47,034 nt of DNA, taken from positions 1 to 47,034 of the forward strand of contig JAUSIP010000011.1 in the NCBI GenBank assembly GCA_030648005.1. The letters run 5' to 3'. The notes under the pieces were generated by a model. It worked only from the letters and a program-made list of their open reading frames with translations, did not search any database and was not told where the DNA came from. Each line of letters starts with the position of its first letter. Position 1 is the first letter of the stretch. Origin of the DNA: a bacterium (lineage in GTDB: Bacteria > Patescibacteriota > Minisyncoccia > Phycocordibacterales > UBA12445). This document shows, one piece after another, positions 3,263 to 18,530 of the stretch. The position numbers and the translations under genes are program-made.

Positions 3263-3535
3263 TCAGATCATCCTCTTGAACTTTTTATAAACCTCGCCGT
3301 CATTTCTCTTGCCGATTAATGCAACATAAACAGTTGTAGAGGAGAAACGATAAATTATCCTATATTCGCTTATATCAGCTCTGTAGTGACCCTTGTATCC
3401 ATGGAGCAGACTCGCATCTGATGGTTGTGGATCATCAGCCAATTTAAAAACCTTTTCCACCACCTGTCTTCGCTGTTTGTACGGAAGTTTTGTAATATAT
3501 TTCTCCGAAACTCTAGAGAGATCAATCTCCCTCAT
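3263..3535 (-). CDS. RelE/ParE-type toxin
   Basis: 90 aa; LPYKQRRQVVEKVFKLADDPQPSDASLLHGYKGHYRADISEYRIIYRF...IGKRNDGEVYKKF typical of RelE. Confidence 0.85.
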   Translation of the reverse strand: MREIDLSRVSEKYITKLPYKQRRQVVEKVFKLADDPQPSDASLLHGYKGHYRADISEYRIIYRFSSTTVYVALIGKRNDGEVYKKFKRMI

Positions 3536-3782
3536 ATAAAGATTTTTTCAAAAAGGCTGCGCTTTTAGCAGTTCCTATATAACCTTTTTTTTCTGCTTTA
3601 GTGGCTAGCTTGCCCCAATAAGCGTCTCGCCTTATATTAAACTCATCGTATTCTTCAGCTGAAATCATCACAGCTACTCGCCGGCCATTCTTCTCCACGG
3701 CCACAGGCGAACGTCTCGCTTCATCCAAGAACCGTCCGAAATTATTTTTAGCCTCTTTGGCGCTAAAAGTTGTATTTATCAT
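3522..3782 (-). CDS. Phd/YefM-type antitoxin
   Basis: FSAKEAKNNFGRFLDEARRSPVAVEKNGRRVAVMISAEEYDE; overlaps both the toxin and the RT gene. Confidence 0.87.
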   Translation of the reverse strand: MINTTFSAKEAKNNFGRFLDEARRSPVAVEKNGRRVAVMISAEEYDEFNIRRDAYWGKLATKAEKKGYIGTAKSAAFLKKSLYEGD

Positions 3783-4804
3783 ATAGTAGCTATTATAGCC
3801 ATAGTGTCTACTATGTCAAACCTCTGTAATCTTTTTTGTAAAATCTTCCCGTTACCATGGCTTAAAAGTCCTAAATAAGATTGAACGACTTCCGGCTTAC
3901 CATTTTTGTCTTTAATATTTATAAACATCCTATTCCTTGTAGTCGTCCGTAAAACTCTATGATCGGGAAAATGCACCCAGCCGAGAAAATCTATCCCCGA
4001 AGATAAAGTTTTAATTGAAACCTTATCCGGATGCAATTCCAATTTAAGTTCCGTCGATAAAAACTCTTTAATCTTTAAAAGTATGGCCTCAAGTGACTTT
4101 TTATTTTGAGAAAGAATAACAAAATCGTCGGCATAGCGAATGTAATACTCGGCCTTCAGTTGGTGCTTCATAAACTGATCAAATTTATTCATGTATATAT
4201 TCACAAAAAGTTGCGATGTAAGATTCCCAAGCGGCAAGCCAACACCGTCTCTATTTGTCGAATTAAAACTACCCATTACATTTTCCAGCAACCACATTAT
4301 TTTCTCATCATGAATATGTGCTTTTAAAATACTCATTAAGACCGCATGGTCTATATTCGCAAAGAACTTCCGTATATCACACTTCAGAACATAGCAAGTC
4401 TTTCTATTATTCTGACCCACTATGCGATAAAATTTTCGAAATCTATCTATGGCTTTAAATGTCGCCTTTCTTAACCGGCAGGAATATGAGTCCGATATAA
4501 ATGTCTTATCGAAGAAAGGATATAATTGTCTGTAGATAGCATGATGCAAAAGCCTATCTCGAACAGTAGCTTTATGAATACTCCTTGGTTTGGGATCAGA
4601 GATATTAAATGCTTGATAACCTCCGTGCTTATAGCTATGATTGGCTAGTTCTTGATGAAGCAAAAAAATATTATCCATTAGACGACTGGAAAATATCAGA
4701 ACATCTCTTTTGGTCTTTTTATCAGCAGAAAATTTCCTCCAGGCTCCTAGTAAATTTTCTACACTAATAATATCTTCAAATTTATGTCCGAACTGAAGTT
4801 TCAT
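3779..4804 (-). CDS. DGR reverse transcriptase 1
   Basis: RT motifs GVGLPLGNLTSQLFVNIYMNKFD, YIRYADDFVIL, LHPDKVSIKTLSSGIDFLGWVHFPDHRVLR. Confidence 0.96.
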   Translation of the reverse strand: MKLQFGHKFEDIISVENLLGAWRKFSADKKTKRDVLIFSSRLMDNIFLLHQELANHSYKHGGYQAFNISDPKPRSIHKATVRDRLLHHAIYRQLYPFFDKTFISDSYSCRLRKATFKAIDRFRKFYRIVGQNNRKTCYVLKCDIRKFFANIDHAVLMSILKAHIHDEKIMWLLENVMGSFNSTNRDGVGLPLGNLTSQLFVNIYMNKFDQFMKHQLKAEYYIRYADDFVILSQNKKSLEAILLKIKEFLSTELKLELHPDKVSIKTLSSGIDFLGWVHFPDHRVLRTTTRNRMFINIKDKNGKPEVVQSYLGLLSHGNGKILQKRLQRFDIVDTMAIIATI

Positions 4805-4838
4805 AAAAATACTCTTAGTAAGACCCCCCCCCCAACAG

Positions 4839-5192
4839 ATTTTACCTCTTAATCAGAAGCTGCTCTCAGTATACAAGCTGTGGCACCGTATACTAGAAGA
4901 TTTTCCGAAGAAATCTAAATATTCCTTGGGCAGCAAAATTGATCTTCTTTTTATAGAAGTTTTAGAAGCGATGTACACCGCAAGCTATCTGAGCAAAAAA
5001 GAGAAAATACCCTTTCTTCAAAGGGCGATCAACAAACTCGATACTCTCAAATTTTTCTTGCAAGTAGCATGGGAAGTTGATTCTCTTGATGAAACCAAAT
5101 TTATGTCGCTATTTGAGCCATTGTATAACATAGGCCAGCTGTTAGGCGGTTGGAGAAATAAAATGATAAAAGAAAACTCTCCCACAAAGTAG
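4839..5192 (+). CDS. DGR accessory protein, bAvd/four-helix-bundle family (start codon uncertain; track shows TTG at 4926)
   Basis: Frame is open upstream of the track start: ILPLNQKLLSVYKLWHRILEDFPKKSKYSLGSKIDLLFIEVLEA...LLGGWRNKM, a typical bAvd pattern. Confidence 0.82.
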   Translation: MLPLNQKLLSVYKLWHRILEDFPKKSKYSLGSKIDLLFIEVLEAMYTASYLSKKEKIPFLQRAINKLDTLKFFLQVAWEVDSLDETKFMSLFEPLYNIGQLLGGWRNKMIKENSPTK

Positions 5193-5211
5193 GAGAGAAA
5201 GAAGAGAATTT

Positions 5212-5339
5212 CGGGAACCGAGGAGCCGGTCATTCGCATTCCAGTCGTTGTCGAGGTAGTTGAGATTCAGCACCCACCGCTTGCCGTTCCAGTTGAGGAT
5301 CGGGACGTAGTGGTTGCGAGTGTCGCGGTTCACCCAGAT
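5212..5339 (-). repeat. DGR1 template repeat (TR1)
   Basis: Direct repeat of 5786..5913 (offset 574). 17 of 18 mismatches in 5212..5338 are at T on + strand (A in sense). Confidence 0.96.
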
Positions 5340-5638
5340 AGAACAAGGCATCATCCATTACACCACCCATCGAGTGCCAACGAAAACAATCTAATCCTCT
5401 CCAGGCTGAATCTTATTTGGGATCTAAAATCCGCCAATGCCTTGCACCAAGTATCTTCATTTTTTAATTTACCCGATTCACTTTGTGAATTTAGGGTGAA
5501 GTTTCTGCATACACCACTCTATCTGAAGTTCATCTTCCGATGCGCCGCAGATATTCCCGATGTATGGATACTGGATTCGGTAGCGGGAAGTTTGTCTAAC
5601 TGAAGTCAAACACGCCGCCCGCATATTCACCTACTACC
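5212..5638 (-). ncRNA. Putative DGR1 template RNA: conserved leader plus TR1 (3' end unknown)
   Basis: Noncoding block shared with DGR2; starts just downstream of a TTGACG-16-TAAACT promoter; contains conserved hairpin ATTCAC-ttt-GTGAAT. Confidence 0.62.
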
Positions 5639-5645
5639 GTTGTCC

Positions 5646-5673
5646 AGTTTATCATCGCGTCTCCCTTCGTCAA
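5646..5673 (-). promoter_or_regulatory. Predicted sigma70 promoter for DGR1 template RNA
   Basis: Minus strand TTGACG (5673..5668), 16-nt spacer, TAAACT (5651..5646); matches the position of the DGR2 promoter. Confidence 0.5.
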
Positions 5674-5778: not shown

Positions 5779-6333
5779 CTAGTTGCGGGAACCGAGGAGC
5801 CGGTCATCCGCACTCCAGCCGTAGCCGAGGCCGCTGAGACCCAGCACCCACCGCAAGCCGTCCCAGCTGAGGACCGGGACGCAGTGGTGGCGAGAGTCGC
5901 GGTTCACCCAGACGGTACCGGGGAAGACCAGGTAGAAGTCGCGGAGAGCCTTGGAGGCTTCCTTGCCTTCGGCGCTGTTGAGGAACTTCAGCACGATCTG
6001 CGCATCTCGCTGGCCGCGGTTGGCTTTCAGCTTGAGTGCCCGTTCGCGCATCTTGTCGCCGTCGATCGAGGTTTCCTTACCTTCGAGGAAGGAGAGTGCT
6101 TCGAACTCAGCATCGCCAGTCAGAGGCTCGACATCTTCGTTAAGATCGTAGCCTTCCTTGCGGAAGTCACGTTCGAAGATAGAGCCCATGTTCACCTTGA
6201 AGGTGGGGCTGGTGGAGATCTTCTCCAGTTCCGTCAGCACTCCCACCAAAAGCTTGTCGACTTCGGCGGACTTGCCGGCCTTCTGCAGGGTTTCGACGCG
6301 GGCGGTGATGGCGGACAGATGTTCAGTGCTCAT
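5779..6333 (-). CDS. DGR1 variable protein (C-terminal VR domain)
   Basis: 184 aa, RBS AAGGAG; ...RDFYLVFPGTVWVNRDSRHHCVPVLSWDGLRWVLGLSGLGYGWSADDRLLGSRN; C-terminus encoded by VR1. Confidence 0.93.
   Translation of the reverse strand: MSTEHLSAITARVETLQKAGKSAEVDKLLVGVLTELEKISTSPTFKVNMGSIFERDFRKEGYDLNEDVEPLTGDAEFEALSFLEGKETSIDGDKMRERALKLKANRGQRDAQIVLKFLNSAEGKEASKALRDFYLVFPGTVWVNRDSRHHCVPVLSWDGLRWVLGLSGLGYGWSADDRLLGSRN
5786..5913 (-). repeat. DGR1 variable repeat (VR1)
   Basis: Near-identical to TR1 except at TR sense adenines; invariant 3' end GACCGGCTCCTCGGTTCCCG (candidate IMH). Confidence 0.96.
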
Positions 6334-13870: not shown

Positions 13871-15811
13871 TTATTTTATAACAGGCTGATCTTCTCCTGG
13901 ACGCACCCCTGAATCAGTGGTTAACTGTATATTCAATTCTCGTCTAACACTAGAAGTGTCAACACCGGTAAATGTATCAGCACCCGATATCGAGGCGTTG
14001 GCGACTAGCGTCGGATATTGCCCGATCTGACCGATAGATGGCAGGAAGGCCACTTGGAAGGCCACTTCACGGGCTGGAGTTAATATCCCGCTACCAGCCG
14101 ATACATCGCCTACACTCCAGACAACCTCTCCGCCAAGTGGATTATACACAATATTCTCACCCGCCGGTGACACACTGCCTACATAACGAACATAAGGAGG
14201 TAGAGCCGCCTTTACAATAACGCCATTGACGTTGTTGGAAGAGTTAACCACAGACCACATGACGGTGTAAGTGGTCTCTCTATCAGCTTGAGGCGGAAGA
14301 GTACCAGTGTTTTTAAAAGGGCCAACATAATATACCGCACGAGCAGTCAATTGCAAATCTGATGAGAGCTTGATCTTCCTCTTGATGACATTCTCGATCA
14401 CTGATCCGGACCCACTCCCTTCGCCAAATCTATTACCCCGGAAAGTAACCTCGAGATCTAACTGCGGATTTTCTAGTATAGTTCTTCTTCCAGAAATAAG
14501 AGGTAAAAATGAGAACGAGAAAGTCTGATTGCCGTCTGCGCCAGGCTCTATTGATTTAGGAAAGTCGCCATTGACCTGGTTCCAGACAATAACTCCATCC
14601 GATGAACGGAAGAAACCATTGCCGGCAGAAACCGTTGACTTATTCAATACCTCGCCATTTATCTTCACAGATATCTCGCCATTCAGGATCTTAACTGGCA
14701 GATTATTTGTCCAGCCGATATTTCCACGAACAGTATCATTAGCGTTTACAATATAATCATCGATACCGGAGTTACCATTTAATGCTATGTTGATACCGAT
14801 AAAAGGCTTCTTAACAACTAACGACTTCAAAGAAGAACCGTAGATTAATGTAACTCTGTTGTCGTCTTTGCTTTCCCTGGTTCCTGCTGAGGCTCTGAAG
14901 GTCTTAATTTCTGCATCCTGTCCCTGCATAGATCCGCGCAACTTAATAGTACGTTCCCCACGTGCAAGGAGATCTCCCAATACCCAGAAATTCTCGCCGT
15001 ACGCCGGAGACGGAGAAGCGTCCTTAAAGATAAATCCTGATGGATAAGCGATTTCCAGGATCACATCTTTTAAAACCTCACTTGAATTGGAGCTAACCTT
15101 GACACTGAGATCCATCTCCTTGTCGGCGTTTATATCTGAAGGCAGTTCTAAAAACAAAGACAACGGCGAGGAACTGATGAAAGTTTTATAACTTTTTCGC
15201 TTGACGAAAGTGGCATTTGAACCCTCTGTCCTGTACTCGAGAGTGACCTTGATCTCCTGCTCGCTATTCTCTTCACCAAACAGAACTGAATTGACGGTCT
15301 CATTGATCACACTATTATTCTCTATCTCTCCGAGATCTTTGATATATCTATTCGGAACAACACTATCGCTCTTAGGAGGTTTAGCACCCTCCGGGTATTC
15401 AACTATAAGCTGCGCGAATTTAAGCGAGATATTATTCTTATTACTTATGAGGATTTGCAAACCGAATTCATCTCCACCCTTAACGGAGACAGGACCAGAG
15501 AGAGAGACATCAATATTGTCATTGGAGACAATATTCGAACCACCAAGAAGAAGATATGTGGAGATTCCAAGCGCGCTTAAGAAAAAAATAGAGGAGGCAA
15601 TCAGAAGGGTTCTTAGAATCGGAGTTTGAACATCTTTAGATTTTTTCATATCTCTTATGGTTGAAATATCTGCCGTATCTTCAAAGGAACTCTTAACATC
15701 CTCTTGAGAAAGCGGGCGCAAATCCGCACGCTCCTTCTCCGGATTTACCGGCCTTGTGTTATAAAGCCTCTTCTCCAGCCTATTAATACTGTCTTCTTGA
15801 TTACCGTTCAT
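13871..15811 (-). CDS. Membrane-anchored surface protein with extracellular beta-rich repeats
   Basis: 646 aa; one TM near residue 70 (LLIASSIFFLSALGISTYLLLG), then long extracellular region with DUF11-like segments. Confidence 0.75.
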   Translation of the reverse strand: MNGNQEDSINRLEKRLYNTRPVNPEKERADLRPLSQEDVKSSFEDTADISTIRDMKKSKDVQTPILRTLLIASSIFFLSALGISTYLLLGGSNIVSNDNIDVSLSGPVSVKGGDEFGLQILISNKNNISLKFAQLIVEYPEGAKPPKSDSVVPNRYIKDLGEIENNSVINETVNSVLFGEENSEQEIKVTLEYRTEGSNATFVKRKSYKTFISSSPLSLFLELPSDINADKEMDLSVKVSSNSSEVLKDVILEIAYPSGFIFKDASPSPAYGENFWVLGDLLARGERTIKLRGSMQGQDAEIKTFRASAGTRESKDDNRVTLIYGSSLKSLVVKKPFIGINIALNGNSGIDDYIVNANDTVRGNIGWTNNLPVKILNGEISVKINGEVLNKSTVSAGNGFFRSSDGVIVWNQVNGDFPKSIEPGADGNQTFSFSFLPLISGRRTILENPQLDLEVTFRGNRFGEGSGSGSVIENVIKRKIKLSSDLQLTARAVYYVGPFKNTGTLPPQADRETTYTVMWSVVNSSNNVNGVIVKAALPPYVRYVGSVSPAGENIVYNPLGGEVVWSVGDVSAGSGILTPAREVAFQVAFLPSIGQIGQYPTLVANASISGADTFTGVDTSSVRRELNIQLTTDSGVRPGEDQPVIK

Positions 15812-16800
15812 TCATCTCTTATTATAACACAAGAAACCAACTTCTTCCCATTTCCATGCCCCAACAGCCCTAAGTAAGATTGAACAACTTCAAGCCTTCC
15901 ACTTTTCTCTCTAATATTTCTAAACATCCTCTTTTTTGTTGTTGTCCGCAAAACTCTATGATCCGGAAAGTGAACCCAGCCCAGAAAGTCTATCCCGGAA
16001 AACAGAGTTGCAATAGAAACTTTGTTCGGATGCAGTTCTAGCCTAAGTTCAGTAAGTAAAAACTCTTTAACTTTAATTAAAACTTCTTCAATCCACTTTC
16101 TATCTTGCGAAAGAATAACAAAGTCATCAGCATAGCGAATATAATACTCGGCCTTAACTTTATGCTTCATAAAATGATCGAATTTATTCATATAAATATT
16201 CACAAAAAGCTGGGAAGTAAGATTGCCAAGTGGTAAGCCAACACCATCTCTTGTAGAATAAAAACTACCAATGATTCGAGAGATGAGCCATGTTATATCT
16301 TCATCCGGTATATAGTTCTTAAAAATATTAGTTAAAATATTTTGATCTATTGAAGCGAAAAATTTTCTAATGTCACATTTTAAAACCCAGAGAGTTTTAG
16401 TGTGATTCGTCGAAGCTCTTTGGGCAAAAGAACGAAATCTATCTACGGCTTTAAGTGCTCCCTTCCTTAATCTGCATGAGTAAGAATCGGGTATAAACGT
16501 CTTATTGAAAAAAGGATAAAGTTGTCTATAGATTGCATGATGAAGAAGTCTGTCTCTCACGTTAGCCTTATGAATATTCCTTGGCTTAGGATCAGAAATA
16601 TCAAAGGCCTCATAGGGAGAGTGTTTGTAAATTTTCGTCTTGAACTCTCGATGTAATGCTAATATGTTAGACATTAAATTCCTCTCAAACTCCTGCACAT
16701 CTTTTCTAGATCTTTTATTGTTTCTAAACTCCTTCCATGCTTGCAATAAATTATCCAAAGAGATAATATCCGAATAAGTATGAATAAATTTAATTCCCAT
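15808..16800 (-). CDS. DGR reverse transcriptase 2
   Basis: Close paralogue of RT1: GVGLPLGNLTSQLFVNIYMNKFDHFMKHKVKAEYYIRYADDFVILSQ; FLGWVHFPDHRVLRTTTKKRMF. Confidence 0.96.
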   Translation of the reverse strand: MGIKFIHTYSDIISLDNLLQAWKEFRNNKRSRKDVQEFERNLMSNILALHREFKTKIYKHSPYEAFDISDPKPRNIHKANVRDRLLHHAIYRQLYPFFNKTFIPDSYSCRLRKGALKAVDRFRSFAQRASTNHTKTLWVLKCDIRKFFASIDQNILTNIFKNYIPDEDITWLISRIIGSFYSTRDGVGLPLGNLTSQLFVNIYMNKFDHFMKHKVKAEYYIRYADDFVILSQDRKWIEEVLIKVKEFLLTELRLELHPNKVSIATLFSGIDFLGWVHFPDHRVLRTTTKKRMFRNIREKSGRLEVVQSYLGLLGHGNGKKLVSCVIIRDE

Positions 16801-16826
16801 AATTTAAAACAGGTAACCCCCCCCGA

Positions 16827-17210
16827 CAGATTTTACCCTTGTTGCAGAATGTTAAGAGTTGTTATCTAGTATGGTATGAATATTATCAGATACTACCCAA
16901 ACTTCACAGGCATTCCCTGGGCCAAAGGATTGATACTCTCTTCGTGGAAGTTATAGAAGCAATAGCCATTGCCGGCTTTTTGTCTCCAGAGGATAAACAA
17001 CCTTGGATTAGGGTAGCTATCAGAAAAGTAGAGACCTTAAAAATACTGCTCATAATCCTGTGGGAAACTAAGTCACTAGACGACAAAAAATTTATTGCCC
17101 TATCAGTACCAATGGATGAGATTGGCAGATTGCTCGGCGGATGGAATGGGCAAGTTATGAAAGCCCTACAAAAAATTCAGCACAAACAAAACTCCCCCAA
17201 CAAAAGTTAG
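16827..17210 (+). CDS. DGR accessory protein, bAvd family (start uncertain; track TTG at 16839)
   Basis: QILPLLQNVKSCYLVWYEYYQILPKLHRHSLGQRIDTLFVEVIEAI...DEIGRLLGGWNGQ. Confidence 0.87.
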   Translation, partial: QILPLLQNVKSCYLVWYEYYQILPKLHRHSLGQRIDTLFVEVIEAIAIAGFLSPEDKQPWIRVAIRKVETLKILLIILWETKSLDDKKFIALSVPMDEIGRLLGGWNGQVMKALQKIQHKQNSPNKS

Positions 17211-17229
17211 AGGAGAAATGAAGAGATTA

Positions 17230-17355
17230 GCGAGCACAGCGGCAAGGTTGGAATCGTTCCGGTCGTTGTCGAGGTGGTTGTAGTTCCGGTTCCAACTACC
17301 ATCGTCGTTCCGATAAAGGACGAGGGAGTAGCGGTTGCCGTTGGCGTTGCACAGA
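17230..17355 (-). repeat. DGR2 template repeat (TR2)
   Basis: Direct repeat of 17839..17964 (offset 609); all 15 mismatches are at T on + strand (A in sense). Confidence 0.97.
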
Positions 17356-17628
17356 TCTATATAGAATGCCTTCCATGCCACCACCCATCGAGTGCCAACT
17401 CGTTCCGTCAAATCCTCTCCAGGTTGAATCGTATTCGGCATCTTAAATGCCCTAGCAAACTATACCAAGTATCTTCATTTTTTAATTTACCCGATTCACA
17501 TTGTGAATTTAGGGTGAAGTTTCTACATACACCACTCTATCCGCAACCGTAATCACGGACACTCTCAATGTATGGATACTGGATTCGGTAGCGAGAAACC
17601 GTGGTCTCTCACATACTCACCTACTACC
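17230..17628 (-). ncRNA. Putative DGR2 template RNA: conserved leader plus TR2 (3' end unknown)
   Basis: Leader matches DGR1 leader in several long blocks; promoter TTGACT-17-TAATAT immediately upstream. Confidence 0.65.
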
Positions 17629-17635
17629 ATTTTGT

Positions 17636-17664
17636 ATATTAGTCCCGATTTTGATCTAAGTCAA
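17636..17664 (-). promoter_or_regulatory. Predicted sigma70 promoter for DGR2 template RNA
   Basis: Minus strand TTGACT (17664..17659), 17-nt spacer, TAATAT (17641..17636). Confidence 0.6.
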
Positions 17665-17742: not shown

Positions 17743-17831
17743 CGTCCCCAATGGGACTTTGTGGAAAAATTACGGGCGGAAGGACTAAGGTCACAGGATC
17801 TAAGGAGATCTCAGTGCCTTAGTCCAAAGAA

Positions 17832-18530
17832 CTACTTGGCGAGCACAGCGGCAAGGTGGGAATCGTACCGGCCGTAGGCGAGGTGGTCGTAGTACCGGCC
17901 CCAACTACCAACGTCGCTCCGATAAAGGACGAGGGAGTAGCGGATGCCGCGGGCGCTGCACAGAGGCTGCCCAAGGAACTCCATCCAGGTGACACCGGTG
18001 GTGTCGTGGAGGAAGCGGAGGGCCTTCTGACCCTCTTCTTCGTAGAGACTCTGGCCGATCTGAGGATCGAGGGCAGTGTCGCCGGCGGTCTTGATGGCCT
18101 CCATGCGGTTCTCGCCAGAGATCACGGACCCGTCGGGAATGTAGGGCTTGAAACGAATGGTGGCGAGATCGATCTCAGTGAGAGCCATGGACCGATCATC
18201 CTGCTCGATCATGCCCTTGAGACCCTTGCCATCCTTCGGACCTTTCCAGAAGCTGGCGCCGGTGCCGAGAAGGGAGACGGGGTCGAAGGGAGTGAAGCGG
18301 TTGATGTGGAAGATGTTGGAAGTGGCCTTGGCGACGGTCGGAGCGACGGTCTCCAAAATCGAGTTGAAGTTTCCCAGAAGCCCAGGATTCTCCGAGAGCT
18401 TCTCCATGAACTTGTCCAGATCGACACCGGCCTTCTTGCAGGCATCGTAGAACAGAAGAAGCGAATCGCAGTCGATATCGATCTTCAAGAACTTATCCAG
18501 ATCAGTCAGTGCTTCCCTGAGATTCCCCAT
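17832..18530 (-). CDS. DGR2 variable protein (C-terminal VR domain)
   Basis: 232 aa, RBS AAGGAGG; C-terminus LCSARGIRYSLVLYRSDVGSWGRYYDHLAYGRYDSHLAAVLAK is encoded by VR2. Confidence 0.93.
   Translation of the reverse strand: MGNLREALTDLDKFLKIDIDCDSLLLFYDACKKAGVDLDKFMEKLSENPGLLGNFNSILETVAPTVAKATSNIFHINRFTPFDPVSLLGTGASFWKGPKDGKGLKGMIEQDDRSMALTEIDLATIRFKPYIPDGSVISGENRMEAIKTAGDTALDPQIGQSLYEEEGQKALRFLHDTTGVTWMEFLGQPLCSARGIRYSLVLYRSDVGSWGRYYDHLAYGRYDSHLAAVLAK
17839..17964 (-). repeat. DGR2 variable repeat (VR2)
   Basis: Copy of TR2 with substitutions only at TR sense adenines; invariant 3' end CTTGCCGCTGTGCTCGC (candidate IMH). Confidence 0.97.

Follow-up and report, generated by a model that had tools for sequence, protein, structure and literature searches.

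A conserved leader 5' of the TR in Patescibacteria DGRs is predicted to fold and to pair with the TR 3' flank within a dedicated template RNA

To our knowledge, the mechanism of DGRs is known almost only from one phage system, in which the template is followed on its 3' side by the folded RNA. In BPP-1, recruitment of bRT-Avd and priming of cDNA from an internal adenine have both been reported for the spacer (PMC12875486), and BPP-1 requires an inverted repeat right after the VR (PMC3240598). The ncRNA of retrons has a structured 5' part, a template in the 3' part, a long-range a1/a2 helix and 2'-5' priming (PMC8989520). Clade 2 of a published DGR survey consists of cellular, Patescibacteria-restricted DGRs (PMC8144416). 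The loci described here fit that clade by organism names alone, and in a text search of the survey avd, antisense and noncoding RNA all went unmentioned.

The window, the whole 47,034-nt stretch of DNA analysed here, is part of a 757-kb Patescibacteria assembly and encodes two DGRs, both on the minus strand. Read in TR sense, each consists of a target gene with the VR at its 3' end, a leader, the TR and the RT, and a bAvd gene is located between TR and RT on the opposite strand. In DGR1 the target gene (5779..6333, minus strand) carries the VR at 5783-5912 and is followed by the TR (5209..5338, minus), the bAvd ORF (4824..5192, plus, antisense to TR and RT) and the RT (3779..4804, minus). The corresponding features of DGR2 are the target gene (17832..18530, minus) with the VR at 17836-17964, the TR (17227..17355, minus), the bAvd ORF (16839..17210, plus, again antisense to TR and RT) and the RT (15808..16800, minus). 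TR/VR mismatches fall at TR adenines (18 of 19 in DGR1, 15 of 16 in DGR2), which identifies the minus strand as the TR sense. The DGR1 RT matches Pfam PF00078; its nearest solved structure is 8ub7 (3.9e-44), a protein of 328 aa, the length of BPP-1 brt. The bAvd ORFs match PF22296 with 42.4 bits in DGR1 (1.1e-10), over the cut-off of 40, and with 38.9 bits in DGR2 (1.3e-9), slightly under it. By RT, bAvd and adenine TR/VR differences the two cassettes are DGRs, and mutagenic retrohoming is predicted from the sequence pattern.

Several other features of these cassettes were recorded. The RT and the antisense bAvd diverge over a very short gap (4805-4823 in DGR1, 16801-16838 in DGR2) that contains a run of about 10 C in DGR1 and 8 C in DGR2. 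None of ATG, GTG or TTG stands where the bAvd frame should start, which leaves room for slippage or an atypical start. A Phd/YefM antitoxin and ParE-like toxin pair (3263-3782) lies immediately downstream of the DGR1 RT. Shortly past the DGR2 VR there is an inverted repeat (GGACTAAGG...CCTTAGTCC, 17770-17832) like the BPP-1 VR-side hairpin.

An earlier note on this DNA had pointed out long blocks common to the leaders of both DGRs, and the observation is confirmed. Three blocks are shared: 78 nt at 97% identity (5446-5523 and 17464-17541), 77 nt at 81% (5354-5430 and 17372-17448) and 40 nt at 88% (5550-5589 and 17558-17597). All exceed the neighboring RT coding DNA, which is 77-79% identical between DGR1 and DGR2. 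A DNA search of the whole assembly found these two leader copies only. The note was also right that the block lies 5' of the TR in TR sense, unlike the BPP-1 spacer, given the sense set by the TR adenines, and that the copies share no plausible ORF. A coding role was rejected, as 0 frames are open end to end in the window copies and few are among 58 leaders (window included).

The same layout, target gene with VR, leader, TR, terminator, antisense bAvd and RT, was identified in more than 100 Patescibacteria DGR loci. The RT is present in 116 of the 299 genomes of the order, and named RT matches come from Parcubacteria-type Patescibacteria, for example Moranbacteria, Azambacteria, Yanofskybacteria and Giovannonibacteria. 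We assembled 120 distinct leaders from loci that have a TR/VR pair; throughout this set TR and RT are read in one direction, with the leader 5' of the TR, and every bAvd gene that could be detected is on the opposite strand. A model of the TR-proximal leader domain (domain II) matches 96/299 genomes of the order, and a model of the 5' domain (domain I) matches 71/293 genomes sampled class-wide and 40/294 sampled phylum-wide. Among the matches listed, the domain II model lies upstream of 91 of 106 RTs at a median distance of 621 nt, with no upstream match for the other 15. The earlier note had proposed searching related CPR DGRs for the block, and it was found there. Viral contigs were scanned for relatives of the RT and none was confirmed. 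Close RT relatives also occur in records titled Spirochaetia and Planctomycetota (L105, L157), possibly misbinned contigs.

Comparison of the leaders argues that the leader is a structured RNA of two domains. Inserted hairpins weakened the consensus when 62 whole leaders were placed in a single MAFFT alignment, and subsets of uniform length were used instead. Domain I (42 sequences, window excluded) has 31 pairs, 26 of them with double changes, and 98.3% of cells paired; for domain II (39 sequences, window excluded) the values are 24 pairs, 19 with double changes, and 94.2%. Together, 45/55 pairs show double changes. On five measures, 0/500 shuffles match the observed values. These shuffle controls leave sequence relatedness in; slid registers, which remove it, pair only 30-52% of cells. 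The leader helices contain 359 G-U cells and 34 A-C cells, and therefore the functional strand would be the TR-sense RNA.

Models trained without the window recover both of its copies. In DGR1, domain I (5480..5638, minus; model R2, 88.4 bits) begins with GGUAGUAGG and comprises a 5' stem-loop and a second stem-loop, and domain II (5334..5453, minus; model R1, 73.4 bits) has a match that extends about 5 nt into the TR. In DGR2, domain I occupies 17498..17628 (minus; R2, 115 bits) and domain II 17352..17471 (minus; R1, 84.0 bits), the latter again including a few nt of the TR. Both hairpins of domain I are capped by a GAYYAMGGUU-like loop. Domain II is made up of P6, a long stem reaching to the TR start, the hairpin P7 and the stem P8. 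Two further pairings were considered and rejected: GGUAG:CUACC in the 5' stem, where the alignment favors AGGY:RCC and an outer GG:CC, and a GAAUAC/GUAUUC pseudoknot in domain II, which by eye is without covariation.

The suggestion that the block is a structured DGR RNA was thus right in kind, supported by compensatory changes and by the window-free models, and the interpretation as a whole is partly supported. The hairpin cited as its sign (ACCC/GGGT plus ATTCAC/GTGAAT) is present in both window copies. Relatives have no hairpin there or unrelated inserted ones, and it is therefore not part of the conserved core. Segment comparison places it in a variable module between domain I and the a1 segment described below (approximately 5466..5496 in DGR1, minus strand), as an insertion specific to its lineage; covariation is seen in other helices.

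The most telling pairing appears to be one between the leader and the TR 3' flank, which lies beyond the stretch covered by the note. A leader segment with the consensus AAAUGAAGA, which we call a1, lies immediately 5' of a near-invariant UACUUGGU, and the TR 3' flank contains a2, with the consensus UCUUCAUUU. In DGR1, a1 (AAATGAAGA, 5454..5462, minus) is followed by TACTTGGT (5446..5453, minus), a candidate priming region with A at its second position, and forms 7/9 pairs with a2 in the TR 3' flank (TCTTCTTTC, 5197..5205, minus). In DGR2, a1 (AAATGAAGA, 17472..17480, minus) and a2 (TCTTCATTT, 17216..17224, minus) form 9/9 pairs, and TACTTGGT is at 17464..17471 (minus).

When the TR flanks of 94 distinct sequences were aligned independently of the leader, one register paired 688/846 cells, versus 596 +/- 8 with permuted partners; other registers paired 47-58% of cells. 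Double-change cells number 86 versus 30 +/- 5 on permutation (67 sequences). The own-partner score is 7.09 versus 6.05 +/- 0.10, and 0/5000 permutations score as high. Among the pairings seen are AAAUAAAAA:UUUUUAUUU, GAAGC:GCUUC, GAAGU:ACUUC and CGAAGA:UCUUCG. Comparative evidence from these 94 loci thus indicates that a1 pairs with a2 across the TR in a fixed register. There is no G-U excess in this helix (28 G-U and 43 A-C, 15 of the latter at the outermost pair), and for about 18 of 92 loci the automatic a2 search chose a site 11-38 nt off. One locus (L174) has G in place of the candidate priming A. We consider the a1:a2 helix new and the most informative feature of these loci, although an earlier description is possible, literature coverage on DGR RNA being limited.

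The borders of TR/VR homology adjoin both helices. Homology ends 3 nt (mode) before a2 and starts a median of 2 nt past the 3' strand of P6, and on this ground a1:a2 and P6 are taken to bound the template. A retrohoming stretch confined between two helices is what would be expected if the RT starts at a1:a2 and stops at P6, which is our main functional inference.

Signals flanking the leader and the TR suggest how the RNA is made. Immediately upstream of the leader block in both window copies is a sigma-70-like promoter: TTGACG - 16 nt - TAAACT with a TG before the -10 in DGR1 (5646..5673, minus) and TTGACT - 17 nt - TAATAT in DGR2 (17636..17664, minus). A -10-like hexamer ends 6-9 nt 5' of the first leader GG in 56/56 homologous leaders, and the frequency of such hexamers at other distances in the same leaders is 4-25%. 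Intrinsic terminators occur directly after TR/a2 in DGR1 (5177..5197, minus) and at 17192..17215 (minus) in DGR2. A terminator was found within 70 nt past the TR in 77% of 118 loci, compared with 3% of control stretches taken within the RT gene and 4% of shuffled sequences; it is typically about 15-30 nt past the TR and, in most loci, only a few nt 3' of a2. The predicted unit therefore reads promoter, leader, TR and, immediately 3' of the TR, terminator. Because the promoter and terminator signals are conserved, leader and TR are probably transcribed as one RNA, and the leader block would be the 5' structured part of a dedicated, self-contained DGR template RNA. Its predicted length from GGUAGUAGG to the terminator is about 440-465 nt (464 nt in DGR1, 441 nt in DGR2). 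The leader does occupy the interval first proposed for it (5360-5638), which proves too short: the DGR1 leader, 5'-GGUAGUAGG..., runs from about 5640 to 5339 on the minus strand, and the unit continues via the TR to the terminator at 5197-5177.

Taken as a whole, these data are probably best explained by a dedicated template RNA with a folded leader, a1:a2 closure and leader-primed cDNA. The RNA would start at GGUAGUAGG from its own promoter, fold into two domains and run through the TR to the terminator. Pairing of a1 (AAAUGAAGA) with a2 (UCUUCAUUU) would close it into a loop and place UACUUGGU beside the template 3' end, and the long helix P6 would border the template 5' end. The folded leader may then recruit RT-bAvd and prime cDNA synthesis, which would begin where TR and a2 meet. 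Our best guess for the primer is the 2'-OH of the A two nt past a1, by analogy with the priming adenine of the BPP-1 spacer, which we take to be A56. The RT would copy the TR with adenine errors and halt at P6, and the cDNA would retrohome to the VR. Comparison among loci supplies the fold, the a1:a2 helix, the bounding helices and the promoter and terminator signals; the remaining steps we infer.

The leader could instead serve RT-bAvd as a docking or stability element only, with cDNA primed elsewhere, for example by the terminator hairpin through its 3' end, or by nicked target DNA. The position of the terminator, so near a2 in most loci, would put a 3'-end primer close by, and conservation of the leader extends well past the pairing segment. 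We nevertheless consider such a role unlikely, since it leaves unexplained why the leader strand just preceding UACUUGGU and the TR 3' flank covary, and do so in a single register, and why TR/VR homology stops 3 nt before the a1:a2 helix. A role as a cis-regulator of TR RNA transcription (riboswitch, attenuator or RNA thermometer) would suit a leader that sits between promoter and template, and pairing of the local ACTTC arm with a1 could form a switch. That local helix was rejected: its covariation with a1 is at chance level (z = 1.4 vs 10.5 for a2). No terminator-like site occurs from leader to TR in either window copy, a search of the region against Rfam 15 gave chance-level matches only, none over the gathering threshold, and the TR boundaries fit the two helices. 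Regulation of this kind is thus very improbable.

Two further explanations merit hardly any credence. The two DGRs are paralogous within one genome, and the similarity of their leaders might stem only from a neutral spacer that was duplicated recently or underwent gene conversion; yet the same fold recurs with compensatory changes in loci of many families, the leader block is more conserved than the RT coding DNA, and the covariation already contradicts neutrality of this kind. The position of the block between VR and TR, and the requirement of BPP-1 for an inverted repeat after the VR (PMC3240598), might also suggest an element that acts as DNA, a cruciform or a VR-side recognition hairpin. 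The leader helices contain far more G-U than A-C, a bias that RNA pairing predicts and DNA pairing does not, and the block adjoins the TR, with the promoter intervening between it and the VR, so we give this reading next to no weight.

Variant loci bear on how the leader is associated with the other components. In three loci (L180, 3215-3447; L185, 3016-3229; L190, 3346-3557) a leader-TR-VR cassette has neither RT nor bAvd in its vicinity; of these, L180 retains a canonical a2 and a terminator. Since some cassettes keep this arrangement with no nearby RT, the leader goes with the TR, not with RT/bAvd. Either an RT acts on these cassettes in trans or they are stranded. In genome G030, whose assembly is rated 100% complete, no relative of the window RT was found. 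A second, more distant RT clade occurs in the same order (L069, L070, L073-L075, L077, L078, L199-L218). Its leader has its own ACUGCUUGC motif and a stem ending at the TR start, and pairings that follow the same logic in other letters were seen by eye (GAAACU:AGUUUC, ACACU:AGUGU, AGAAAUU:AAUUUCU). In this clade GC follows the paired segment, unlike the candidate A position of the main clade.

A large lineage of uncultured bacteria thus appears to use an order of folded RNA and template opposite to that of the phage system. The parts predicted here form a full set open to in vitro tests: both folded domains, the helix that would close the RNA, an adenine that may prime cDNA, and precisely defined template borders. 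For annotation, the covariance model finds cassettes even where there is no RT. A self-contained template RNA would be useful for comparing DGR and retron initiation, and a separate RNA unit could possibly be used in tools for targeted diversification.

Like BPP-1, the Patescibacteria systems have a DGR-type RT, an Avd-family partner, adenine-specific TR/VR differences and a structured RNA that adjoins the TR. BPP-1 has its structured part 3' of the TR, as a spacer of 144 nt that separates TR and brt, whereas in Patescibacteria it is the leader 5' of the TR; avd in BPP-1 is in sense and 5' of the TR, whereas bAvd is antisense, between TR and RT. In the window and its relatives we found neither a structured 3' spacer nor a sense avd directly 5' of the TR. 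Past the TR there is only the terminator and then antisense bAvd, where BPP-1 has its structured spacer. Within the BPP-1 spacer, a segment shortly 5' of A56 (nt 48-54) could form a helix with TR nt 123-129, which leaves one nt before A56, the same spacing as in a1-U-A. This helix is a suggestive parallel of a1:a2, with about 6% of shuffles doing as well (P = 0.056).

The resemblance to retrons lies in the order, structured part and then template, and in part in a covarying helix analogous to a1/a2, but retron a1 is at the RNA 5' end, and the Patescibacteria a1 is internal, between the two leader domains. We lean toward a permuted template RNA in which the recruiting and priming domain precedes the template, a1:a2 brings that domain to the template 3' end, and priming is from a 2'-OH as in retrons. 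If so, retron and DGR initiation would be united in one scheme, and the template RNA would be a portable unit, transcribed separately. The components differ from those of retrons, with a DGR RT and bAvd in place of a retron RT and effector (the RT is closest to the DGR-sized 8ub7), and the TR is a template that diversifies a VR. By these sequence characters the Patescibacteria system is a DGR and not a retron, and its cassette RNA looks like a rearranged version of the BPP-1 machine.
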